In this document: positions 7,992-15,885 of the stretch, one piece after another
Position numbering within the stretch: position 1 is the stretch's first letter
Layout of the letters: the number at the start of each line of letters is the position of its first letter
Source: Microcoleus sp. EPA2
GTDB taxonomy: Bacteria > Cyanobacteriota > Cyanobacteriia > Cyanobacteriales > Microcoleaceae
Direction of reading: 5' to 3'
Assembly (NCBI GenBank): GCA_020882975.1
Contig: JAHRFD010000002.1
Coordinates: 70,039-134,038 of the forward strand
DNA: 64,000 nucleotides
Program-made: the position numbers and the translations under genes
The notes under the pieces: model-generated
Databases searched by the model: none
Seen by the model: only the letters and a program-made list of their open reading frames with translations
What the model was told of the DNA's origin: nothing

Positions 7992-8309
7992 ATGTCGATC
8001 GCCGTCATTAAAGAACATATCGAAATCACCCCAGGAATTTGTGGGGGAAAACCCCGTATCGCCGGACATCGCATCCGAGTTCAGGATATAGTTGTTTGGC
8101 ACGAACAAATGGGAATGTCACCAGATGAAATTCTGTATCACTATCCGAGTATTACTTTATCTGATATCTATGCAGCTTTAGCCTATTATCACGATCGTCG
8201 AGATGAAATTCGTTCTGCGATCGAAGCAGATGCAGAATTTGCGCGCCAATTGAAAGCTCAAAACCCATCGCTATTGCAACAAAAATTAAAAAGTCGTCAA
8301 CATGGCTAA
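7992..8309 (+). CDS. DUF433 antitoxin
   Basis: This 105-residue protein carries the DUF433 signature: ITPGICGGKPRIAGHRIRVQDI, then a helical part with GMSPDEILYHYPSITLSDIYAALAYY. In the family these act as DNA-binding antitoxins paired with a DUF5615 PIN-like protein. The next gene is such a protein and starts 8 bases before this stop. The ATG at 7992 begins the conserved region with the usual short lead. The pair probably self-represses. A second DUF433 gene with a broken partner lies at 39893. Confidence 0.9.
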   Translation: MSIAVIKEHIEITPGICGGKPRIAGHRIRVQDIVVWHEQMGMSPDEILYHYPSITLSDIYAALAYYHDRRDEIRSAIEADAEFARQLKAQNPSLLQQKLKSRQHG

Positions 8310-8634
8310 GATAAAATTCCATCTCGACGAAAATATAACTCTTGCCATAGGGAATGGATTGCGAAGACGTGGAATTGATGTCACCACAACTCCAGAACAA
8401 GGAATGATCGGGCAATCCGACGAACAACAATTAGCATTTTCGCTGTCTCAAGAACGGGTAATTTTTACTCAAGATACAGATTTTTTAAGACTGCATCATG
8501 CGGGTTTGTCTCACGCGGGTATTGTTTACTGTCCGCAAACCAGTAAATCGATTGGGGAAATTTTGCAAGGATTAGTATTAATTTGGGAGGTACTGAATGC
8601 TGAAGAAATGAACGGTCGTTGGGAGTATTTGTAA
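8302..8634 (+). CDS. DUF5615 PIN-like toxin
   Basis: This 110-residue protein begins MAKIKFHLDENI, with the acidic residue of a PIN-like nuclease, and has the DUF5615 middle part VIFTQDTDFLRLHH with two further aspartates. It is expected to be an RNase-type toxin, kept inactive by the DUF433 protein whose gene overlaps its start by 8 bases. The ORF is intact to the family's usual length, unlike the relative at 40120-40453. Confidence 0.88.
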   Translation: MAKIKFHLDENITLAIGNGLRRRGIDVTTTPEQGMIGQSDEQQLAFSLSQERVIFTQDTDFLRLHHAGLSHAGIVYCPQTSKSIGEILQGLVLIWEVLNAEEMNGRWEYL

Positions 8635-8650
8635 AAATAGGCGATCGTAA

Positions 8651-10018
8651 TTAATTTTGACAACAAGTTCTCACATATTCTCGAACAACAAGAGATAAAT
8701 CAAACAATACTTTATTTCCTTCTATTCTTTGGAGTAAATAACGTTGACCCAACGATCGCAACCCATTCATCAAGTCCATTGATGACAGAGATAAACTTTG
8801 TCTTAAATCTTCCCTTGACACAGGTAAGTCAAATTTACTTAATTGTAAAAGAATCTCTTGTTCTGTGGGTGATAGCCGTTTGAATAATTCAGTCAACCTA
8901 GATTTCATATCTTTAGTGACAATTAAACTGTCTTCTTGTAAAAAATCAGCAACTTTGCCACCAAAAATACTTTTAATTAAACTGGCAATATCTTTTAAAT
9001 CAACGAAATTTCCTCCGTACATATCGCTAAACTCCGCCCAGGCTTCATCATCTTTTAGTCCCCATTTTTTGAAGATTTCTGTATTGTCTAATCCTTGTAA
9101 ATCTAAGCACTTAATAGGATATAAATCCTCATCCAGACTAATCATTTCTTGACATTGTTCCTGACTTATTAAAATCAAGCTACTTTGATGTTCTAGATTT
9201 GTCATCATTTTCAATAAATTTTGGAAATTTTTAGATTCCGTTTTGAACTCTCCTGCCAATTCTCCCTTAATAAATAATTCTTGGAAATCATCAAGGACGA
9301 TTAAACATCTTTGCTGACGTAAAAGATTGAAAAACTGAGTTAACTTATTATCAGTTTGAAGAGAATCGCGATCGACACCTATGATAATTTCATTAATAAT
9401 GCCATCTAAAGATTGAGATAGTTTGAGGTTTTTCCAGATTACTACCTCAAAATGTGCTAAATTTAGGTCAACAAACTGTTTGACTAGGGTGGTTTTGCCA
9501 ATTCCACTTAATCCTAAAACTGAGACTAGATGAAGATTTTGGTCGATTAACCAGTGGGAGAGGGTTTGAAGTTCGGTTGTGCGATCGTAAAAAATGGTGA
9601 TTTTAGGGGCTAGGCTTAAATCACGATACAGAGATTTAGATTGATTTTCAGTTATATTCTCTTGATTGTCTTTATTTGTATTATATAAAAATTCTCGATT
9701 AAAATTAAAATTGTAATTGCTACCGTTTACATGACAAATATTTTGATTTTGAGATGATTGTATATGCAGTCTTTGGAAGGTAGAGCGAAAATTGTACTTA
9801 TTAATATCTTCACCTAACTGTTCAGATAAAATTTGCCATAGCTGACGCCCAACATTTCTAACACGACTTTCGCTGCGGTTACATTCATCAGCAATTTCAT
9901 CATAGGTTTTTCCCTGATAAACCCCTGTAATTACGGATTTTTGCACATCATCCAAGTGTTTTCCTGTGTTAGTGAAAATCAACCTATCGGCACATTGTAA
10001 AACCTCTGTAACATTCAT
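8651..10018 (-). CDS. STAND ATPase with N-terminal HTH (NB-ARC/NACHT-like)
   Basis: With the ATG at 10018 (MNVTEVLQCADRLIF) the protein has 455 residues. The longer frame to 10114 adds an AT-rich, poorly protein-like leader. Residues 1-75 resemble the HTH found in cyanobacterial vWA/MoxR-associated and NB-ARC proteins (YDEIADECNRSESRVRNVGRQLW). The P-loop is GLSGIGKTTL (about 169-178), and Walker B is CLIVLDDF. The C-terminal quarter looks like a winged helix (LSPTEQEILLQLSKFDLPVSREDL). No TPR, WD40 or effector domain follows, so it is a short STAND protein. Its 5' end faces the operon starting at 10457, with about 440 bases between. It may be a sensor switch for that operon, but this is inference. 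Confidence 0.85.
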   Translation of the reverse strand: MNVTEVLQCADRLIFTNTGKHLDDVQKSVITGVYQGKTYDEIADECNRSESRVRNVGRQLWQILSEQLGEDINKYNFRSTFQRLHIQSSQNQNICHVNGSNYNFNFNREFLYNTNKDNQENITENQSKSLYRDLSLAPKITIFYDRTTELQTLSHWLIDQNLHLVSVLGLSGIGKTTLVKQFVDLNLAHFEVVIWKNLKLSQSLDGIINEIIIGVDRDSLQTDNKLTQFFNLLRQQRCLIVLDDFQELFIKGELAGEFKTESKNFQNLLKMMTNLEHQSSLILISQEQCQEMISLDEDLYPIKCLDLQGLDNTEIFKKWGLKDDEAWAEFSDMYGGNFVDLKDIASLIKSIFGGKVADFLQEDSLIVTKDMKSRLTELFKRLSPTEQEILLQLSKFDLPVSREDLRQSLSLSSMDLMNGLRSLGQRYLLQRIEGNKVLFDLSLVVREYVRTCCQN

Positions 10019-10204
10019 AAAATGTATCCACAGTAAATTTATGACAATTATAGTATATTTTAAGACATTTAATTGATTTTTGTTAATTTTAGTTTGATTT
10101 TTATAAAAAAACACAAGATAAAATAAGACATTTTAAGCTTGTGTTCGTTTATCAAAGTATGTATAGTGATTTTTATGATTTTGTTTTGAACAAGGCACTT
10201 CAGT

Positions 10205-10381
10205 ATGTCAATGCCCCAAGAAATGACTGATGCTAATCTTAGATCGATTCCATCCGGTTTATCTGGCATTTATGCAATATACCATGATTTTGATGGAGAA
10301 ATTGATACTGCTTATGTAGGAAGAGCCAAAGGGACACCCGGAAGTTGTATTAAGACAAGACTGCAAAAACATTTTAAGTGA
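10205..10381 (+). pseudogene. Short GIY-YIG nuclease-like fragment
   Basis: A 58-codon frame (MSMPQEMTDAN...) contains SGLSGIYAIYHD and TAYVGRA followed by IKTRLQKHFK and a stop. This is the start of a GIY-YIG nuclease domain: the two tyrosine motifs and the arginine helix. The rest of the domain, including the metal-binding glutamate, is absent, so the gene is probably truncated. It could be a short functional protein. It lies between the STAND gene and the vWA operon. Confidence 0.45.
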
Positions 10382-10456
10382 ATTAAAAATCTTCTTAAAA
10401 TTCATCTCGATCAGACAGAGTTCAACACAAGTTAGTGACAATAGAGGTAAAAGTTT

Positions 10457-11128
10457 ATGAGTGATGGTCAAAGTGTTAAGTATGCAGTGGACTTGGTGAT
10501 GTGTATTGATGGCACAGGTTCAATGGGTCATTTAATTGAAGAAGTGAAGTCAGCCGCTCTCAAGTTTTACGAGCAGCTAGAAGCTAAGATGAAAGAAAAA
10601 AGTAAAAAAATAGATCAACTGAGAGCTAGGGTAATTGTATTTCGGGATTATTGGGCCGATCCAGCCGATAAAGTGATGCAATGTTCTGAGTTTTTTGACT
10701 TGCGATCGCAGTCCTCCGATTTTGCTAATTTTGTCTCTCCAATTAAAGCTGACGGTGGCGGTGACGAACCGGAAAATGGCTTAGAAGCAGTGGGGTTAGC
10801 ACTTAAGTCAAAGTGGGAAAAAGGAGACTTTAGCAAGCAACGATATGTGGTCGTTGTTTACACCGATGCTAGCGCTCATAGTTTAGACAAAGGCCCTAAA
10901 CCCAGTCACTATCCTAATGATATACCAAAAAGCTTTGATGATTTGACGGATTACTGGCACGATATACCAACATCAGCCAAGCGTTTATTACTGTTTGCAC
11001 CTGATGCTGAACCCTGGACAATGATGAGTAGCTGGGAAAATACGATTCATTATGTTTCGGAAGCAGGTAATGGATTAGAAGAACTAGAAATAGATCAAAT
11101 TTTAGAAGCGATATCGGGGAGCATATAA
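10457..11128 (+). CDS. vWA-domain protein, TerY-like
   Basis: The 223-residue protein is a single von Willebrand factor A domain. The metal site is CIDGTGSMGHLIEEV (DxTxS variant, Asp18), with the later acidic positions in GGGDEPENGLEAVGLAL and VVVVYTDAS. The DGTGSM form and the DEPENGLEA stretch are typical of TerY-type vWA proteins. It is cytoplasmic, as no signal peptide or membrane helix is present. It is the first gene of a plus-strand set with a PP2C phosphatase, a kinase and a zinc-ribbon protein, which matches the TerY-P triad defined by comparative genomics of tellurite and chemical stress systems. Confidence 0.88.
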   Translation: MSDGQSVKYAVDLVMCIDGTGSMGHLIEEVKSAALKFYEQLEAKMKEKSKKIDQLRARVIVFRDYWADPADKVMQCSEFFDLRSQSSDFANFVSPIKADGGGDEPENGLEAVGLALKSKWEKGDFSKQRYVVVVYTDASAHSLDKGPKPSHYPNDIPKSFDDLTDYWHDIPTSAKRLLLFAPDAEPWTMMSSWENTIHYVSEAGNGLEELEIDQILEAISGSI

Positions 11129-11227
11129 GCCGGTTTGTTAATGAGCTATCTAAGTTAACTTAATTACCCACAGATGTATTAAGTTAACTTTTTACATAAC
11201 CTACAATTTTAAATAAAAGATTCAATT

Positions 11228-13012
11228 ATGGCTATGACTAAATTTAATTTAGTAGTAAATATAGAAGTTGCTGAAGGCAAAGGCGAAGATGCCAACCTAG
11301 CTGAAGATTTTGGACAAACTTTCTTGATGGGCGTGTTTGACGGATTAGGAGGCCGATCGGCTGGTTACGGTGGTAAAACAGGGGGACGTATTGCCTCAGA
11401 AGAATCATCTCAAATCAGCAAAACATTCTTCAAACAATGGCACGGTGAAATAAAGCCAGAAAATGTCATTCAATTACAACAAGAAATTTGCCGATCGCTG
11501 AAAATTAAAGCAGATATCGAGATGCAGCCGAAAACTTCATCTCGGCTAAAAGGTTCTTTAGTGGAACATAAACTTTGTACAACGATTGCCCTTGCTAGCA
11601 TTCCCAAGCAAAAAGGGCAAGAAAGGATTTTTGAAGCTAACTTGGCTTGGATGGGAGATTCACGAATTTATTTTCTCAGTCCAACTAAAGGTTTACAACA
11701 ACTGACCAAAGATGACTTAGTAACTCCCAAAGATGCCTTAGAAATGTTGAGACAAGATCCACCCATGTCTCAATATTTAACCGCCCATATAAATCCGACA
11801 TGGCAAATTCATTTTCAGCATTATGATATTAAAGAACCTGGCTGTTTTTTAGCTTGTACTGACGGCTGTTTCCAGTATTTTTCTGCTCCTTGGGAATTTG
11901 AAAAATTGTTGCTAGAGATGCTCTCTAAGTCAGAAGGGGATACAATGGAAAAAAATACTTGGCAACAATTAATTAAACAAAGATACACAGAGATTAAGCA
12001 AGATGATGTTTCTTTAATTCTCTATCCAGTAGGATTTAACGGGATCAAGCACTTAAAGAGTTCTTATCAAGAGCGTTTGCAGTATCTACAAGAAAACTTT
12101 ATTTCTCCTACGGCTAATACTCGCTATGAGGATTTACAAAACCTGTGGGAAAAGTATAAAATTGATTATGAATATTATTTGCCATTCATTCAGGATATTC
12201 AGCCAACCGCTAATTCTCAACCGCCAGTGTCAGAAGCGAAACCCTCCCCAGCCAGTTCAACCAGTTCAAGTTTGAGTACAACTGACCCCTTCAAAAAAAT
12301 TACTAATTTATCTAAACATAAAGCAACAGCTAATGCTGAAAAAATTAAAAGTTTGCTGGATCGGGCTAAGTGTTGTTATGACAACAATCAACTAAAAGAA
12401 GCTCAAGATTGGTGTAATCAAGTTTTGGAGATTGATCCTCATCACAGTGAATGTAAATATATTTTAGGATTGATTTACACTAAATTAGCTTTCTTTGAAA
12501 CAGATTTTGTTCCAAAACAAAACTTATTACAAAAGGCCGCTTTCTGCTTGGAAGAAGTAGTTAGCAAAAATAATGGAGAAGAAATTATAGAATCGTCCCG
12601 AAATCTAGGTTTTATTTACTATCATTTAAACCAATGGGACAATGCCGTTTTCTTTTATCAACAATTTTTTAATAGTCCGGGTGCGGAAAATCGCGACTAC
12701 TGGGAAGAACACTTAGATGCGTTCGTTACCTCCCTGAAATCAATAGGCAATAAAAATAAAGCAGCCAATGCAGCTATTCAGTTTTGTCTGCGTCTAGTTA
12801 ATAGCAATAGCATTTTACCCTACGGAAAAAAGGCTTCGCTTTATTACTTTATGGCAGTTTTGCAAGAAATAGAAGGAGAATTAAACGCCGCATTGAATAG
12901 CCTTAAAACAATATTAACATCGTCTTCAGAAGTTAATATTGAACTTAGAGCAAAAGCTCAAAAAAAGTATCAAGAAATTCAGAATAAATTAAAACATAGG
13001 GGGTTTTATTAA
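11228..13012 (+). CDS. PP2C-type protein phosphatase with TPR domain
   Basis: The protein has 594 residues. Residues 1-270 form a PP2C metal-dependent phosphatase: the first acidic pair near 20, GVFDGLGGRSAG (Asp38), MGDSRIYFL (142-150), ACTDGCFQYF (TDG 211-213) and KQDDVSLIL (Asp259-260). All metal ligands are present, so it should be active. A Ser/Pro-rich linker (about 325-355) leads to TPR-type helices (about 370-590). It is expected to remove phosphates added by the kinase encoded just downstream, whose ATG is 3 bases past this stop. The TPR part may bind the vWA partner or the substrate. Confidence 0.9.
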   Translation: MAMTKFNLVVNIEVAEGKGEDANLAEDFGQTFLMGVFDGLGGRSAGYGGKTGGRIASEESSQISKTFFKQWHGEIKPENVIQLQQEICRSLKIKADIEMQPKTSSRLKGSLVEHKLCTTIALASIPKQKGQERIFEANLAWMGDSRIYFLSPTKGLQQLTKDDLVTPKDALEMLRQDPPMSQYLTAHINPTWQIHFQHYDIKEPGCFLACTDGCFQYFSAPWEFEKLLLEMLSKSEGDTMEKNTWQQLIKQRYTEIKQDDVSLILYPVGFNGIKHLKSSYQERLQYLQENFISPTANTRYEDLQNLWEKYKIDYEYYLPFIQDIQPTANSQPPVSEAKPSPASSTSSSLSTTDPFKKITNLSKHKATANAEKIKSLLDRAKCCYDNNQLKEAQDWCNQVLEIDPHHSECKYILGLIYTKLAFFETDFVPKQNLLQKAAFCLEEVVSKNNGEEIIESSRNLGFIYYHLNQWDNAVFFYQQFFNSPGAENRDYWEEHLDAFVTSLKSIGNKNKAANAAIQFCLRLVNSNSILPYGKKASLYYFMAVLQEIEGELNAALNSLKTILTSSSEVNIELRAKAQKKYQEIQNKLKHRGFY

Positions 13013-13015
13013 ACT

Positions 13016-14020
13016 ATGTCTTACAAAGAAGGTGATGTGATTACTGACAAATATCTAGTAACCCGTGACTTTGATAGTGCTAACGGGGGTCAATGCCAAT
13101 GGGGTTTTGCTCTGAATATACACGATGGAAACGAATATTTTGTTAAAAAATTCCTCAGTCCAGTTTATCCAGGTGAAGATGCACCAGGAAGCGAAAAAGG
13201 AAAACAAAAGCGGCGCGATCAGTGTGAAGAATTTGCGAGAAAACAGCTAGCTATTCAAACAGCACTATCTGCTTGTGGTGCAGGGGGATCGGTAGTAGTG
13301 ATGGTGGACTTTTTTAAGTACGGTGATGATTATGGCGAACATTTCTTCAAAGTCTGCCAAAAAGTCGATACCAGTTCCTTATCAAAGGAAATACATAAAC
13401 TAGAGCAAAAAAAGCGTTTATTTGTGATGCTAACAGCAGCAGGTGCGCTGAAAATTTTACACTCCAATGGCATTGTCCATCTTGACTTGAAACCAGATAA
13501 TGTGCTGATTCAAGAATGGGAAGGAAGGCAAGTTGCTAAAATTATTGATTTTGATAGTAGTATTCTTGAAGGAGAATTGATCGCGGCGGAATTTTTAGTC
13601 GGCGATCCAGTATATTATTCCCCAGAATTTGCCAAACATATCGCCACAGCAGGAAAGACACCCGCACCCACTAAAAAATCTGATATTTTTTCCCTGGGTT
13701 TAATTTTCAGTCAATATTGGACAGGTGATCGTCCGATGTTATCAGAAAAGTATACTTATGCTCACGAAGCTATTCTGGATCGAAAAAAACTGGAATTACC
13801 GTCGATTAAAAATACAACTAAATTGCGCGGTACTCTCATTCGAGAAGATCCACTAGATACCGAAGTGCGTAAACTAATAGGAGAGATGTTAGCTTTAAAC
13901 CATGAAGAAAGACCTGATATTAATCAAGTTCATCAAAGAATAAAGTATTATTATAATAATGGTGTTCCACCCAAAGATGGTAGAAATAAGCTAAGCATCA
14001 ATCTGAAGCCCAAATTATGA
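13016..14020 (+). CDS. Ser/Thr protein kinase
   Basis: The protein has 334 residues. It has a kinase fold with a loose glycine loop (DSANGGQCQWGFAL), an ATP-binding Lys in YFVKKFL (about 44-45), the catalytic HLDLKPDN (155-162, Asp157) and DFD at 178-180 in place of DFG. The activation segment ends YYSPEF, and IFSLGLIFSQYWTG is the helix-F region. The metal-binding Asp is kept, so activity is likely despite the DFD change. No membrane helix or sensor domain follows. It is tightly linked to the PP2C gene (3 bases) and 13 bases from the zinc-ribbon gene, so one transcript is likely. Confidence 0.92.
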   Translation: MSYKEGDVITDKYLVTRDFDSANGGQCQWGFALNIHDGNEYFVKKFLSPVYPGEDAPGSEKGKQKRRDQCEEFARKQLAIQTALSACGAGGSVVVMVDFFKYGDDYGEHFFKVCQKVDTSSLSKEIHKLEQKKRLFVMLTAAGALKILHSNGIVHLDLKPDNVLIQEWEGRQVAKIIDFDSSILEGELIAAEFLVGDPVYYSPEFAKHIATAGKTPAPTKKSDIFSLGLIFSQYWTGDRPMLSEKYTYAHEAILDRKKLELPSIKNTTKLRGTLIREDPLDTEVRKLIGEMLALNHEERPDINQVHQRIKYYYNNGVPPKDGRNKLSINLKPKL

Positions 14021-14033
14021 AATTTTTGATTTT

Positions 14034-14612
14034 ATGAAAAAAACTTACCAGTGTAAAGGTTGTGGGAATGAAGTTGTTTCACTGATGAAGCCTTCAGAGT
14101 GTCAGGTTTGTACAGGACGAGAATGGACGAGATTAGCTACGAGTAAACCGATTGATTCAGGAGATGAAACTATGGCTATTGATAAAGATTTATTTTCTTC
14201 CTTTAAATTTAGATCTACAATCGAGGGTTATTGCCGAGATATTGGCTGGAAGATTTCTAGTATTGATAATCAAATAGCTGTAATTAAGTTTGATATGGAA
14301 TCGGGAAGTACACAAACTTTATTTATTGTCAAGTACGATTCAACTCTTGAGTTTTCTTGTCCGAGTGGCTTGAAATTTGACGACATCGATGACATACCAC
14401 ATAATCTGTCTACGTTTCTTCTTGGCAAAAATGCTGAATATAAACTCGGTTTTTGGGCTTTGCAAAAAATAGGAGAAAAACAGACATTCTCAATTATTCA
14501 TAATGCAGAGATGAGCTTAATAGATGTTAATTATTTCAGGAAGATACTAATTATTTTGGTAGAAAAATGTGATGAGTTTGAACAAAACATTGAAACATTA
14601 ATCAATAGTTAA
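14034..14612 (+). CDS. Zinc-ribbon protein of unknown function
   Basis: This 192-residue protein has a zinc ribbon at the N-terminus (Cys7, Cys10, Cys23, Cys26). After a linker from about residue 55 comes a mixed alpha/beta domain (IEGYCRDIGWKISSIDNQIAVIKFDMESGSTQ) that recalls the CesT/YbjN-like chaperone fold, but I cannot name a family with confidence. The gene follows the kinase by 13 bases and is almost certainly in the same operon. It may be a scaffold or target of the phosphorylation triad (inference). Confidence 0.75.
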   Translation: MKKTYQCKGCGNEVVSLMKPSECQVCTGREWTRLATSKPIDSGDETMAIDKDLFSSFKFRSTIEGYCRDIGWKISSIDNQIAVIKFDMESGSTQTLFIVKYDSTLEFSCPSGLKFDDIDDIPHNLSTFLLGKNAEYKLGFWALQKIGEKQTFSIIHNAEMSLIDVNYFRKILIILVEKCDEFEQNIETLINS

Positions 14613-14896: not shown

Positions 14897-15307
14897 ATGA
14901 CTTTTATCCCATCCGAAGCGTTTAAATCTATTAGTTATCCCGATCGCACTGTAGAAAGGGCCGATCGCGCGATCCGGTGCAGCCCATTTCAATTACACTT
15001 CTTCCAGACCATCCGCGATAACAGCGTTTTCCTAACTGCGATCGCCTCAAATTCCGGTGTCGAACGCGGCTACACCCGATCGCCCGTAGCCGAACTCACA
15101 GCCGAAAACTCCCTGCTGTGGCTGATCCAAGTCGGCGTACTGCGGCGAGAAGTAGATGGACAAGGGATTACCGACAGTTTTCGCCTCACGCCCCTAGGCC
15201 GCCAACTCGTGGAAAAATGGGAACAGGAAGGAAATAAAGTGCCGGATGCTTCATTGTGCGATCGTATTGGAAATACCTTTAGCCGCGGGTTGGGACTATT
15301 TCTATGA
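14897..15307 (+). CDS. Conserved cyanobacterial hypothetical protein
   Basis: The 136-residue protein has a patterned sequence (SPFQLHFFQTIRDNSVFLTAIAS, then ENSLLWLIQVGVLRREVDGQGITDSFRLTPLGRQLVEKW) that looks like a winged-helix fold, with the last part as the wing. I have the impression of a family confined to cyanobacteria (possibly Npun_F0494-like), from memory only. No catalytic motif is present. The ATG at 14897 is chosen because the region upstream is non-coding. It is a single gene between repeat elements. Confidence 0.7.
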   Translation: MTFIPSEAFKSISYPDRTVERADRAIRCSPFQLHFFQTIRDNSVFLTAIASNSGVERGYTRSPVAELTAENSLLWLIQVGVLRREVDGQGITDSFRLTPLGRQLVEKWEQEGNKVPDASLCDRIGNTFSRGLGLFL

Positions 15308-15338
15308 GCTTTTCTTGCTTGCCACAGTCTGACAGATA

Positions 15339-15630
15339 GTCCGACAGTCCGACAATCCGACAATCCGACAGTCCGACAGTCCGACAGGGAATGAATTCCC
15401 TGTCTCATAGCGAAAGTCGGTTAAAACCGACTGCAAGTCTAAATTCAACTTGATATTGAGTTTCGCATAAAACCGACTGCAAGTCTAAATTCAACTTGAT
15501 ATTGAGTTTCGCATAAAATCGACTGCAAGTCTAAATTCAACTTGATGTTGAGTTTGCCATTTCACGTAAATCAACCTCCTCAGTCCTCTTTCAGAGGACT
15601 TGCGCTATGAGACAGGGATTTCAATCCCTG
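15339..15630. repeat. Symmetric composite palindrome block
   Basis: Reading left to right: six reversed octamers GTCCGACA (15339-15386), hairpin CAGGGAATGAATTCCCTG (15385-15402), GTCGGTTAAAACCGAC (15416-15431), three copies of a 46-bp unit, AGTCCTCTTTCAGAGGACT (15582-15600) and CAGGGATTTCAATCCCTG (15613-15630). A forward octamer array follows. Linkers TCTCATAGCG and CGCTATGAGA between hairpins are inverted copies, so the whole block is one large interrupted palindrome. It uses the same modules as 1-583 and 1151-1417. Confidence 0.85.
15431..15555. repeat. 46-bp tandem repeat, about 2.7 copies
   Basis: The unit starts CTGCAAGTCTAAATTCAACT and recurs at 15431, 15477 and 15523, each 46 bases apart. 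Copies one and two are nearly identical; the third changes 'gatattgag' to 'gatgttgag' and then fades. It sits at the centre of the composite palindrome. Confidence 0.85.
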
Positions 15631-15885
15631 TCGGACTGTCGGACTGTCGGACTGTCGGACTGTCGGACTGTCGGACTGTCGGACTGTTGGACTGTCGGAC
15701 TGTTGGACTGTCGGACTGTCGGACTGTCGGACTGTTGGACTCTGGGACTGTTGGACTGTCGGACTGTCGGACTGTCGGACTGTTGGACTCTGGGACTGTT
15801 GGACTGTCGGACTGTTGGACTCTGGGACTGTCGGACTGTCGGACTGTTGGACTGTCGGACTGTCGGATTGTCGGACTGTCGGACT
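15631..15885. repeat. Octamer array, about 32 units of TCGGACTG
   Basis: The array is 255 bases of an 8-bp repeat (TCGGACTG with variants TTGGACTG, TTGGACTC and TGGGACTG), beginning at the base after the hairpin 15613-15630. Period 8 leaves all frames open, which yields false proteins rich in SDCRTVGL or SPTVRQSD. Blocks such as TTGGACTC-TGGGACTG recur together, so larger units have been copied. Confidence 0.92.

Follow-up and report, generated by a model that had tools for sequence, protein, structure and literature searches.

A minimal NB-ARC STAND gene divergent from an exchangeable kinase/PP2C/vWA operon in Microcoleus: a candidate transcription switch with interchangeable payloads

MalT is a STAND transcription activator acting at its boxes, and MalT/LAL-type STAND activators are NB-ARC-like ATPases with a helix-turn-helix (HTH) and direct repeats near their target promoters. 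TerY-P triads are described in CoCoNuT systems and in the phage-defence system of Gao et al. 2020, with a zinc ribbon or an OB fold as the kinase adaptor (PMC11090510); WYL-domain regulators of the BrxR/CapW type accompany diverse defence systems and have sites in the adjacent promoter (PMC9122601); cyanobacterial proteins with NB-ARC and sigma-70 region 4 are treated as sigma factors (PMC11119718); and conflict systems of multicellular bacteria comprise kinase/PP2C/vWA sets, GTPases, STAND ATPases, trypsins and exchangeable effectors, a kinase/PP2C/vWA set being reported beside GAP1-N2 genes (PMC7159879, PMC8195603). A 64,000-nucleotide stretch of DNA from the soil cyanobacterium Microcoleus sp. 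EPA2 (contig JAHRFD010000002.1, positions 70,039 to 134,038; hereafter the window) carries a short HTH-STAND gene beside a four-gene operon for a vWA protein, a PP2C phosphatase, a Ser/Thr kinase and a four-cysteine ribbon protein. The five genes are confirmed as real. Their open frames, with intergenic gaps of 99, 3 and 13 bases in the operon, and the motifs DGTGSM (vWA), HLDLKPDN and DFD (kinase) were found as a preliminary description of this DNA had given them, and the order vWA-PP2C-kinase-ribbon protein was seen again in relatives, indicating that the arrangement is not due to chance. The DFD, called odd in the same description, was present in 13 of 13 assessable family kinases (a fourteenth, in L037, is a 71-residue fragment and was left out) and is therefore a family trait. 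It also had the STAND gene facing the operon; the orientation is divergent.

The locus shares with TerY-P the vWA, PP2C and Ser/Thr kinase genes standing together and a zinc-ribbon or OB-fold kinase adaptor. However, its vWA protein lies outside the TerY family by the tests made, its ribbon is carried, together with another domain, by a protein of its own, and a divergent STAND regulator is present. Like BrxR/CapW, one regulator family stands beside many systems, here with candidate sites in the adjacent promoter, but BrxR/CapW are HTH-WYL repressors at inverted repeats, whereas the proteins described here are HTH-STAND ATPases, encoded divergently, with direct repeats 10 bp apart; no WYL domain was among the Pfam matches of the STAND protein. 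The likeness to MalT/LAL activators appears to extend to the ATPase, the HTH and direct repeats near target promoters. In contrast to these activators, the STAND protein here carries a sigma-region-4-like HTH at its N-terminus, its Pfam matches include neither TPRs nor a sensor domain of another type, and its gene is linked to divergent operons of many kinds. Sigma-70-type and NB-ARC domains also occur in one protein in PMC11119718, whose account of these proteins, in the portion available, is without neighbouring operons, promoters or exchange. The conflict systems of multicellular bacteria use MoxR-vWA, VMAP, iSTAND or GAP1 cores, and a divergent HTH-STAND regulator is not described in the portions available; unlike the VMAP/iSTAND ternary systems, the STAND protein here has Walker motifs, and no MoxR ATPase was found among the nine proteins scanned between 7992 and 15307 (no MoxR-vWA pair). 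Proteins with NB-ARC and sigma-70 domains (PMC11119718), triads, and regulators common to diverse defence systems (PMC9122601) are already in print; no report of short HTH-STAND genes coupled to exchangeable divergent operons was among the matches listed in searches of the open-access literature.

Exchange of the operon was seen at the site beside ileS. Of 29 Microcoleus genomes, 27 were found to have the gene that lies beside ileS at 14897-15307, and the site was read in 25 of the 27 (G009 and G023 left out). STAND plus triad occupied the site in five genomes (G000, G001, G011, G017, G028) and STAND plus another payload in six: a GTPase set in G004, G007 and G016, a 116-residue open reading frame (ORF) in G006, a 464-residue ORF in G008, and genes of 411 residues, 187 residues and DUF4407 type in G003, where the contig ends within the STAND gene. 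Four genomes (G012, G014, G018, G027) had no STAND but an AAA_21 ATPase and a partner of DUF4276 type, and G006 also carries such a set, outside the STAND slot. Two genomes had an MmeI-type methylase (G013, G021), five had an empty site (G005, G015, G019, G020, G022), and the site was not resolved in three (G002, G024, G026). Pfam supported the GTPase in 3/3, AAA_21 in 4/4 and MmeI in 2/2 cases; DUF4276, scanned in two, was over the cut-off in L066 and below it in L065. In PADLOC, the ATPase of L066 matched AbiLi (1.3e-20) and the GTPase of L061 matched LeoA (5.7e-11).

Pairwise comparison of these loci placed the exchange junctions sharply, one within the STAND gene and one behind the promoter. 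L058 and L059 have the STAND gene and promoter in common but different payloads: in 60-bp bins their identity was 85-100% between -600 and +180 and 30-50% thereafter. L016 and the window have the payload in common but not the promoter, with 58-61% identity over 0 to +180 and 80-96% over +180 to +660, where the comparison ended. The window and L058 were 88-100% identical over the STAND gene from about codon 150 onward and 50-70% over the HTH and linker, and differed in promoter and payload too. Both payload exchange and joint exchange of HTH and operator are thus evident from the alignments. Three changes of the triad label are required on a tree of 38 STANDs, at least two of them forced by starred branches, and a single clade of triad-linked STANDs, a group defined after the loci had been seen, was rejected (approximately unbiased test, p 3e-6); the GTPase label is likewise scattered. 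A triad-specific role of the STAND was also rejected, because same-site STAND orthologues precede, and keep, other payloads.

The STAND frame is open over 8651-10114 on the reverse strand, with a likely start (MNVTEVLQ) at 10018, where its homologues begin. NB-ARC was matched at 3.6e-10; NB-ARC, VWA_4, PP2C_2, TPR_2 and Pkinase were each over the Pfam cut-off, and no Pfam family reached the cut-off in the ribbon protein. The protein is an NB-ARC-type STAND by its P-loop NTPase with Walker A (GLSGIGKT) and Walker B (LIVLDDF) motifs, the winged helix being visible only in a weak model; Walker A was present in 39/39 STANDs. The N-terminal HTH resembles sigma-70 region 4 (6e-5, below cut-off). Family members have about 450 residues and no sensor repeats, and the Pfam matches of the 455-residue window protein held no repeat family of the kind expected of a MalT-type sensor. 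The best Foldseek matches of the weak model (predicted local distance difference test, pLDDT, 58) were plant NLR (nucleotide-binding leucine-rich repeat) resistosomes (E 4.8e-9), which show NB-ARC kinship only. STAND relatives at E 1e-20 were present in 40/40 genomes asked, 1 to 21 in each, a count that takes in longer relatives. Distant relatives occur in 46 plasmid records, and those in the three records with neighbourhoods read are annotated as NB-ARC proteins of 1193-1231 residues, showing that the window-type STAND is a short form.

A divergent ORF lay 100-400 bp away in 25 of 30 STAND copies from five genomes, compared with 83 of 343 control ORFs, and the nearest ORF of at least 100 residues was divergent in 28/30. 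The 30 copies represent 32 of 53 matches: those covering almost the full query, together with two that are split and one, L120, that contains stops. Matches that were partial or lay in much longer frames were omitted, and the window counted as a miss, with 438 bp to the vWA gene. The control was strict because its ORFs, taken from the same loci, include payload genes with a STAND neighbour. Among 26 payload-candidate proteins scanned, many had no Pfam match; the domains recognized were a DO-GTPase with a WD40 neighbour, N6_N4 methylase plus Mrr, dynamin-like, Trypsin_2, radical SAM and ThiF, with JAB below the cut-off. On contig C8 of the same genome, a STAND copy (L101) has three divergent neighbours, one JAB-like (below cut-off), one of 148 residues without Pfam match that may be E2-like, and a ThiF gene (1.1e-33); this payload has the appearance of a ubiquitin-like conjugation operon.

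Thirty-seven non-redundant promoter regions were compared, after L037 (twice), L039, L103, L119 and L120 had been set aside because they were degenerate or distant. At lag 10, 9-base repeats with no more than one mismatch were present in 22/37 regions, against 0.76 ± 0.81 in shuffles and 9/354 control intergenic regions, and lags 20, 29, 39, 53, 64 and 74 were raised too. Exact 5-mers recurred at lag 10 in 23/37 regions and at other lags from 6 to 29 in 0-9; by a stricter 12-mer statistic, only 10 of 42 regions reached significance (p < 0.05). The -10-like box of the STAND gene lay at outward positions 22-36 in 36/37 regions, other 15-bp bins holding one in 4-15 of 37. Non-random repeats across the family and a conserved promoter layout are evident from these comparisons. 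The TAAG half-sites of the window clade align with TCAG half-sites in L016. Across L016 and 11 loci of the ileS site, 12 in all, HTH similarity predicted operator similarity (partial r 0.67, reached in 3 of 2000 permutations) and similarity of the NTPase half did not (0.04).

We consider it rather probable that the locus is an NB-ARC-gated transcription switch with an exchangeable payload, that is, a two-part conflict cassette. The first part would be a portable switch made of the minimal NB-ARC STAND, its N-terminal sigma-region-4-like HTH and its own divergent promoter, in which helically phased direct repeats would overlap with the promoter of the STAND gene and immediately precede that of the operon. 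Once triggered, the NB-ARC domain would exchange nucleotide and oligomerise, and the HTHs of the oligomer would occupy the tandem repeats and turn the operon on, as MalT does at its boxes. The second part would be the payload, which can be exchanged and which in this locus would be a phosphorylation switch of kinase, PP2C and vWA protein, the ribbon protein acting as its adaptor. We infer that the STAND binds the repeats, that its nucleotide state controls it, that the operon is its target and is activated, not repressed, that an invader is the trigger, and that the system protects against phages or other invaders; the variable linker following the HTH, or a product of the payload, may take the part of a sensor. 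Several points weigh against this reading. No sensor domain on which a trigger would act was found in the STAND. The window's own repeat was not significant (p 0.115; 3 matches vs 2.7 expected), and the window is not one of the 22 repeat-bearing regions. Over 37 wider-family loci the operator followed the NTPase half (partial r 0.60) better than the HTH (0.24), and coupling of operator and HTH across the wide family was accordingly dropped as unsupported. As the HTH coding DNA adjoins the operator, linkage alone could explain their joint travel. Finally, triads without a nearby STAND exist (L019, L040, L056, L057).

The repeats overlap the STAND promoter, a placement that would also suit a repressor silencing a toxic payload until an invader removes the STAND, as is thought for BrxR/CapW, and regulators of such logic accompany diverse defence systems (PMC9122601). 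However, tandem direct repeats beside an operon promoter suit an activator equally or better. Known STAND transcription factors such as MalT activate, and we regard repression as possible but unlikely.

Relatives of the ribbon protein were found in 10 of 292 cyanobacterial genomes at E 0.001 and not in the plasmids searched. Among 15 aligned relatives (own included) the ribbon was present in six and absent in eight; the fifteenth, L041, was aligned from an internal start. Six triad-less relatives have a STAND gene nearby (L041, L042, L046, L050, L052, L053) and at L043 a distant STAND relative lies about 2.8 kb away; no STAND was present in the stretch read at L044, L045 and L048, and L055 showed only a GIY-YIG match before the contig end. 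L048 has the ribbon without an adjoining triad, an exception to the pattern of ribbon with triad. By these comparisons the four-cysteine ribbon mostly accompanies the triad, and the rest of the protein mostly the STAND, also without the triad. The AlphaFold2 model of the ribbon protein was of low confidence (pLDDT 49), the PDB profile search gave chance-level matches (best E 0.24), and Pfam searches per relative gave none over the cut-off in the member shown, with weak E-values throughout, including a weak SycN match in 1/15 (0.086). The protein may resemble YbjN or a secretion chaperone in its fold. A second Microcoleus cassette (L046, L052, L053, L055) consists of the STAND gene (cut in L053, out of reach in L055), a GIY-YIG-like ORF of 114 residues (partial match only in L055), the ribbonless relative and a small gene of 79-83 residues.

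That the ribbon protein's C-terminal domain goes along with the STAND in these six triad-less loci would fit a STAND acting as signalling partner in a complex, passing activation to the payload with the ribbon protein as go-between, divergence securing joint expression and inheritance. STANDs with N-terminal adaptor domains are direct sensors elsewhere (PMC7159879, PMC8195603). But the N-terminus here is an HTH, the promoter carries phased repeats, and most payloads read have no ribbon-protein relative, all of which makes a signalling complex doubtful. Fourteen triad loci were read, with upstream DNA visible in 12; in these an adjacent divergent STAND and a window-type ribbon protein were both present in eight and both absent in four (Fisher 0.002, uncorrected for kinship). 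The operon genes and the STAND remain together in relatives, as the preliminary description required. One of the eight, L037, has a broken STAND, and L039 and L047 have the ribbon protein in sequences that end at or near the vWA gene. Chance proximity of a TerY-P-like stress module and a STAND in a defence hotspot, with no functional tie, would account for STAND-free triads and for an ileS site that also holds AAA_21 ATPase sets, MmeI-type methylases or nothing, but is improbable given the fixed divergent layout and spacing in 25/30 copies, the conserved promoter layout, and exchange that keeps STAND and promoter together.

The preliminary description had identified the vWA, PP2C and kinase genes as the TerY-P set. 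The architecture is alike, with vWA, PP2C and Ser/Thr kinase in one operon; the family assignment was not supported for the vWA or the kinase by the tests made. TerY_C was not found in the window's own genome (G000) and was present in 1/146 cyanobacterial genomes, and a Ter association was rejected on these grounds. The window vWA showed no BLAST similarity to the TerY of L100, a single reference (its TerY_C 1.3e-10). No zinc ribbon or OB fold, as in the fused kinases of TerY-P, followed the window kinase domain, and this kinase was not among 29 places matching the PADLOC STK_OB model in G000. PADLOC gave zero matches for the window vWA, PP2C and ribbon protein; the TerY and PP2C of the reference triad L100 (TerY_C, PP2C_2, Pkinase) also had no PADLOC match, so that this silence on vWA and PP2C is no evidence. 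Because two of three defining features tested were absent, the operon is not filed as TerY-P, yet by its architecture it would work like a TerY-P switch.

Homologues of the vWA protein (E 1e-8 or better) were rare and patchy, in 7/292 cyanobacterial genomes including its own, one of them (G255) only at 2.4e-9 over partial length, and no vWA or ribbon-protein relatives were found in the viral contigs searched. The closest named relatives were from Microcoleus. Triads outside the window clade were present in Iningainema (L019), at L040, and on plasmids of Herpetosiphon (L056) and Calothrix (L057); the vWA proteins of L056 and L057 are 45% identical to that of the window, and PP2C comes last in L057. 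Relatives have as adaptor either a ribbon protein, which comes in two kinds, or an S1/OB domain forming part of the kinase: the kinase of L040, 53% identical to the window's, carries S1 (2e-18), and the adaptor of L019 is a ribbon (read from sequence) joined to a coiled coil and a PPC domain. This variation mirrors the zinc-ribbon/OB-fold variation of TerY-P kinases (PMC11090510). L037 (G286) is a decayed copy with a fragmented kinase and a broken STAND, the kinase frame of L036 (G001) breaks near residue 288 (real or an assembly error), and tandem vWA gene pairs occur in triads L038, L039 and L051, the first gene of L039 being cut by the contig end.

Coordinates are collected in Table 1. The frame at 10205-10381, GIY-YIG-like and truncated, had been overlooked; the corresponding ORF has 118-128 residues in four orthologous loci vs 58 in the window, and a longer relative in L052 matched GIY_YIG_2 below the cut-off. 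A DUF433/DUF5615 pair, presumably toxin-antitoxin-like, lies beside the site (7992-8634) and is retained at several empty sites. Between the flanking gene and ileS (15338-15885) there are arrays of 8-bp units (CTGTCGGA/AGTCCGAC) in up to 32 copies and a 46-bp unit in 2.9 copies.

Table 1. Features of the STAND locus, in window positions
Feature	Position	Strand	Basis
Minimal HTH-NB-ARC STAND, 455 residues from likely start	8651..10018	-	Pfam, homologues
Divergent promoter/operator region	10019..10204	.	Comparison of homologous regions
-10-like TATAAT of STAND gene	10047..10052	-	At least 5/6 bases at same place in 36/37 regions
First copy of TTTAAGACATTT word	10059..10070	+	Not significant in window alone
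Second copy, TAAG half-sites 10 bp apart	10124..10137	+	Kept in 4/5 clade loci
Likely operon promoter TTGTGT-17-TATAGT	10139..10167	+	By eye, inferred
Truncated GIY-YIG-like ORF, 58 residues	10205..10381	+	Comparison with orthologous loci
vWA protein, DGTGS	10457..11128	+	Pfam VWA_4 3.1e-10
PP2C-TPR phosphatase	11228..13012	+	Pfam PP2C_2 8.2e-6, TPR_2 2.5e-10
Ser/Thr protein kinase, HLDLKPDN and DFD	13016..14020	+	Pfam Pkinase 4.9e-26
Ribbon protein with four cysteines; its C-terminal domain goes with STAND loci	14034..14612	+	Sequence, relatives

For the family at large, the chances seem to us about evenly balanced that multicellular cyanobacteria carry minimal NLR-like STAND transcription switches, each with its own phased-repeat promoter, into which different conflict effectors are plugged by recombination, its junctions recurring at two places, within the STAND gene and immediately past the promoter. 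If this is true, bacterial NLR-like ATPases would be gene switches with interchangeable outputs, beyond direct death or defence proteins. The STAND family would then serve as a search tool in which a gene lying about 200 bp away in divergent orientation is a candidate conflict module, many such candidates having no known domain, and it would offer a clean test case for how a STAND without sensor repeats is triggered.

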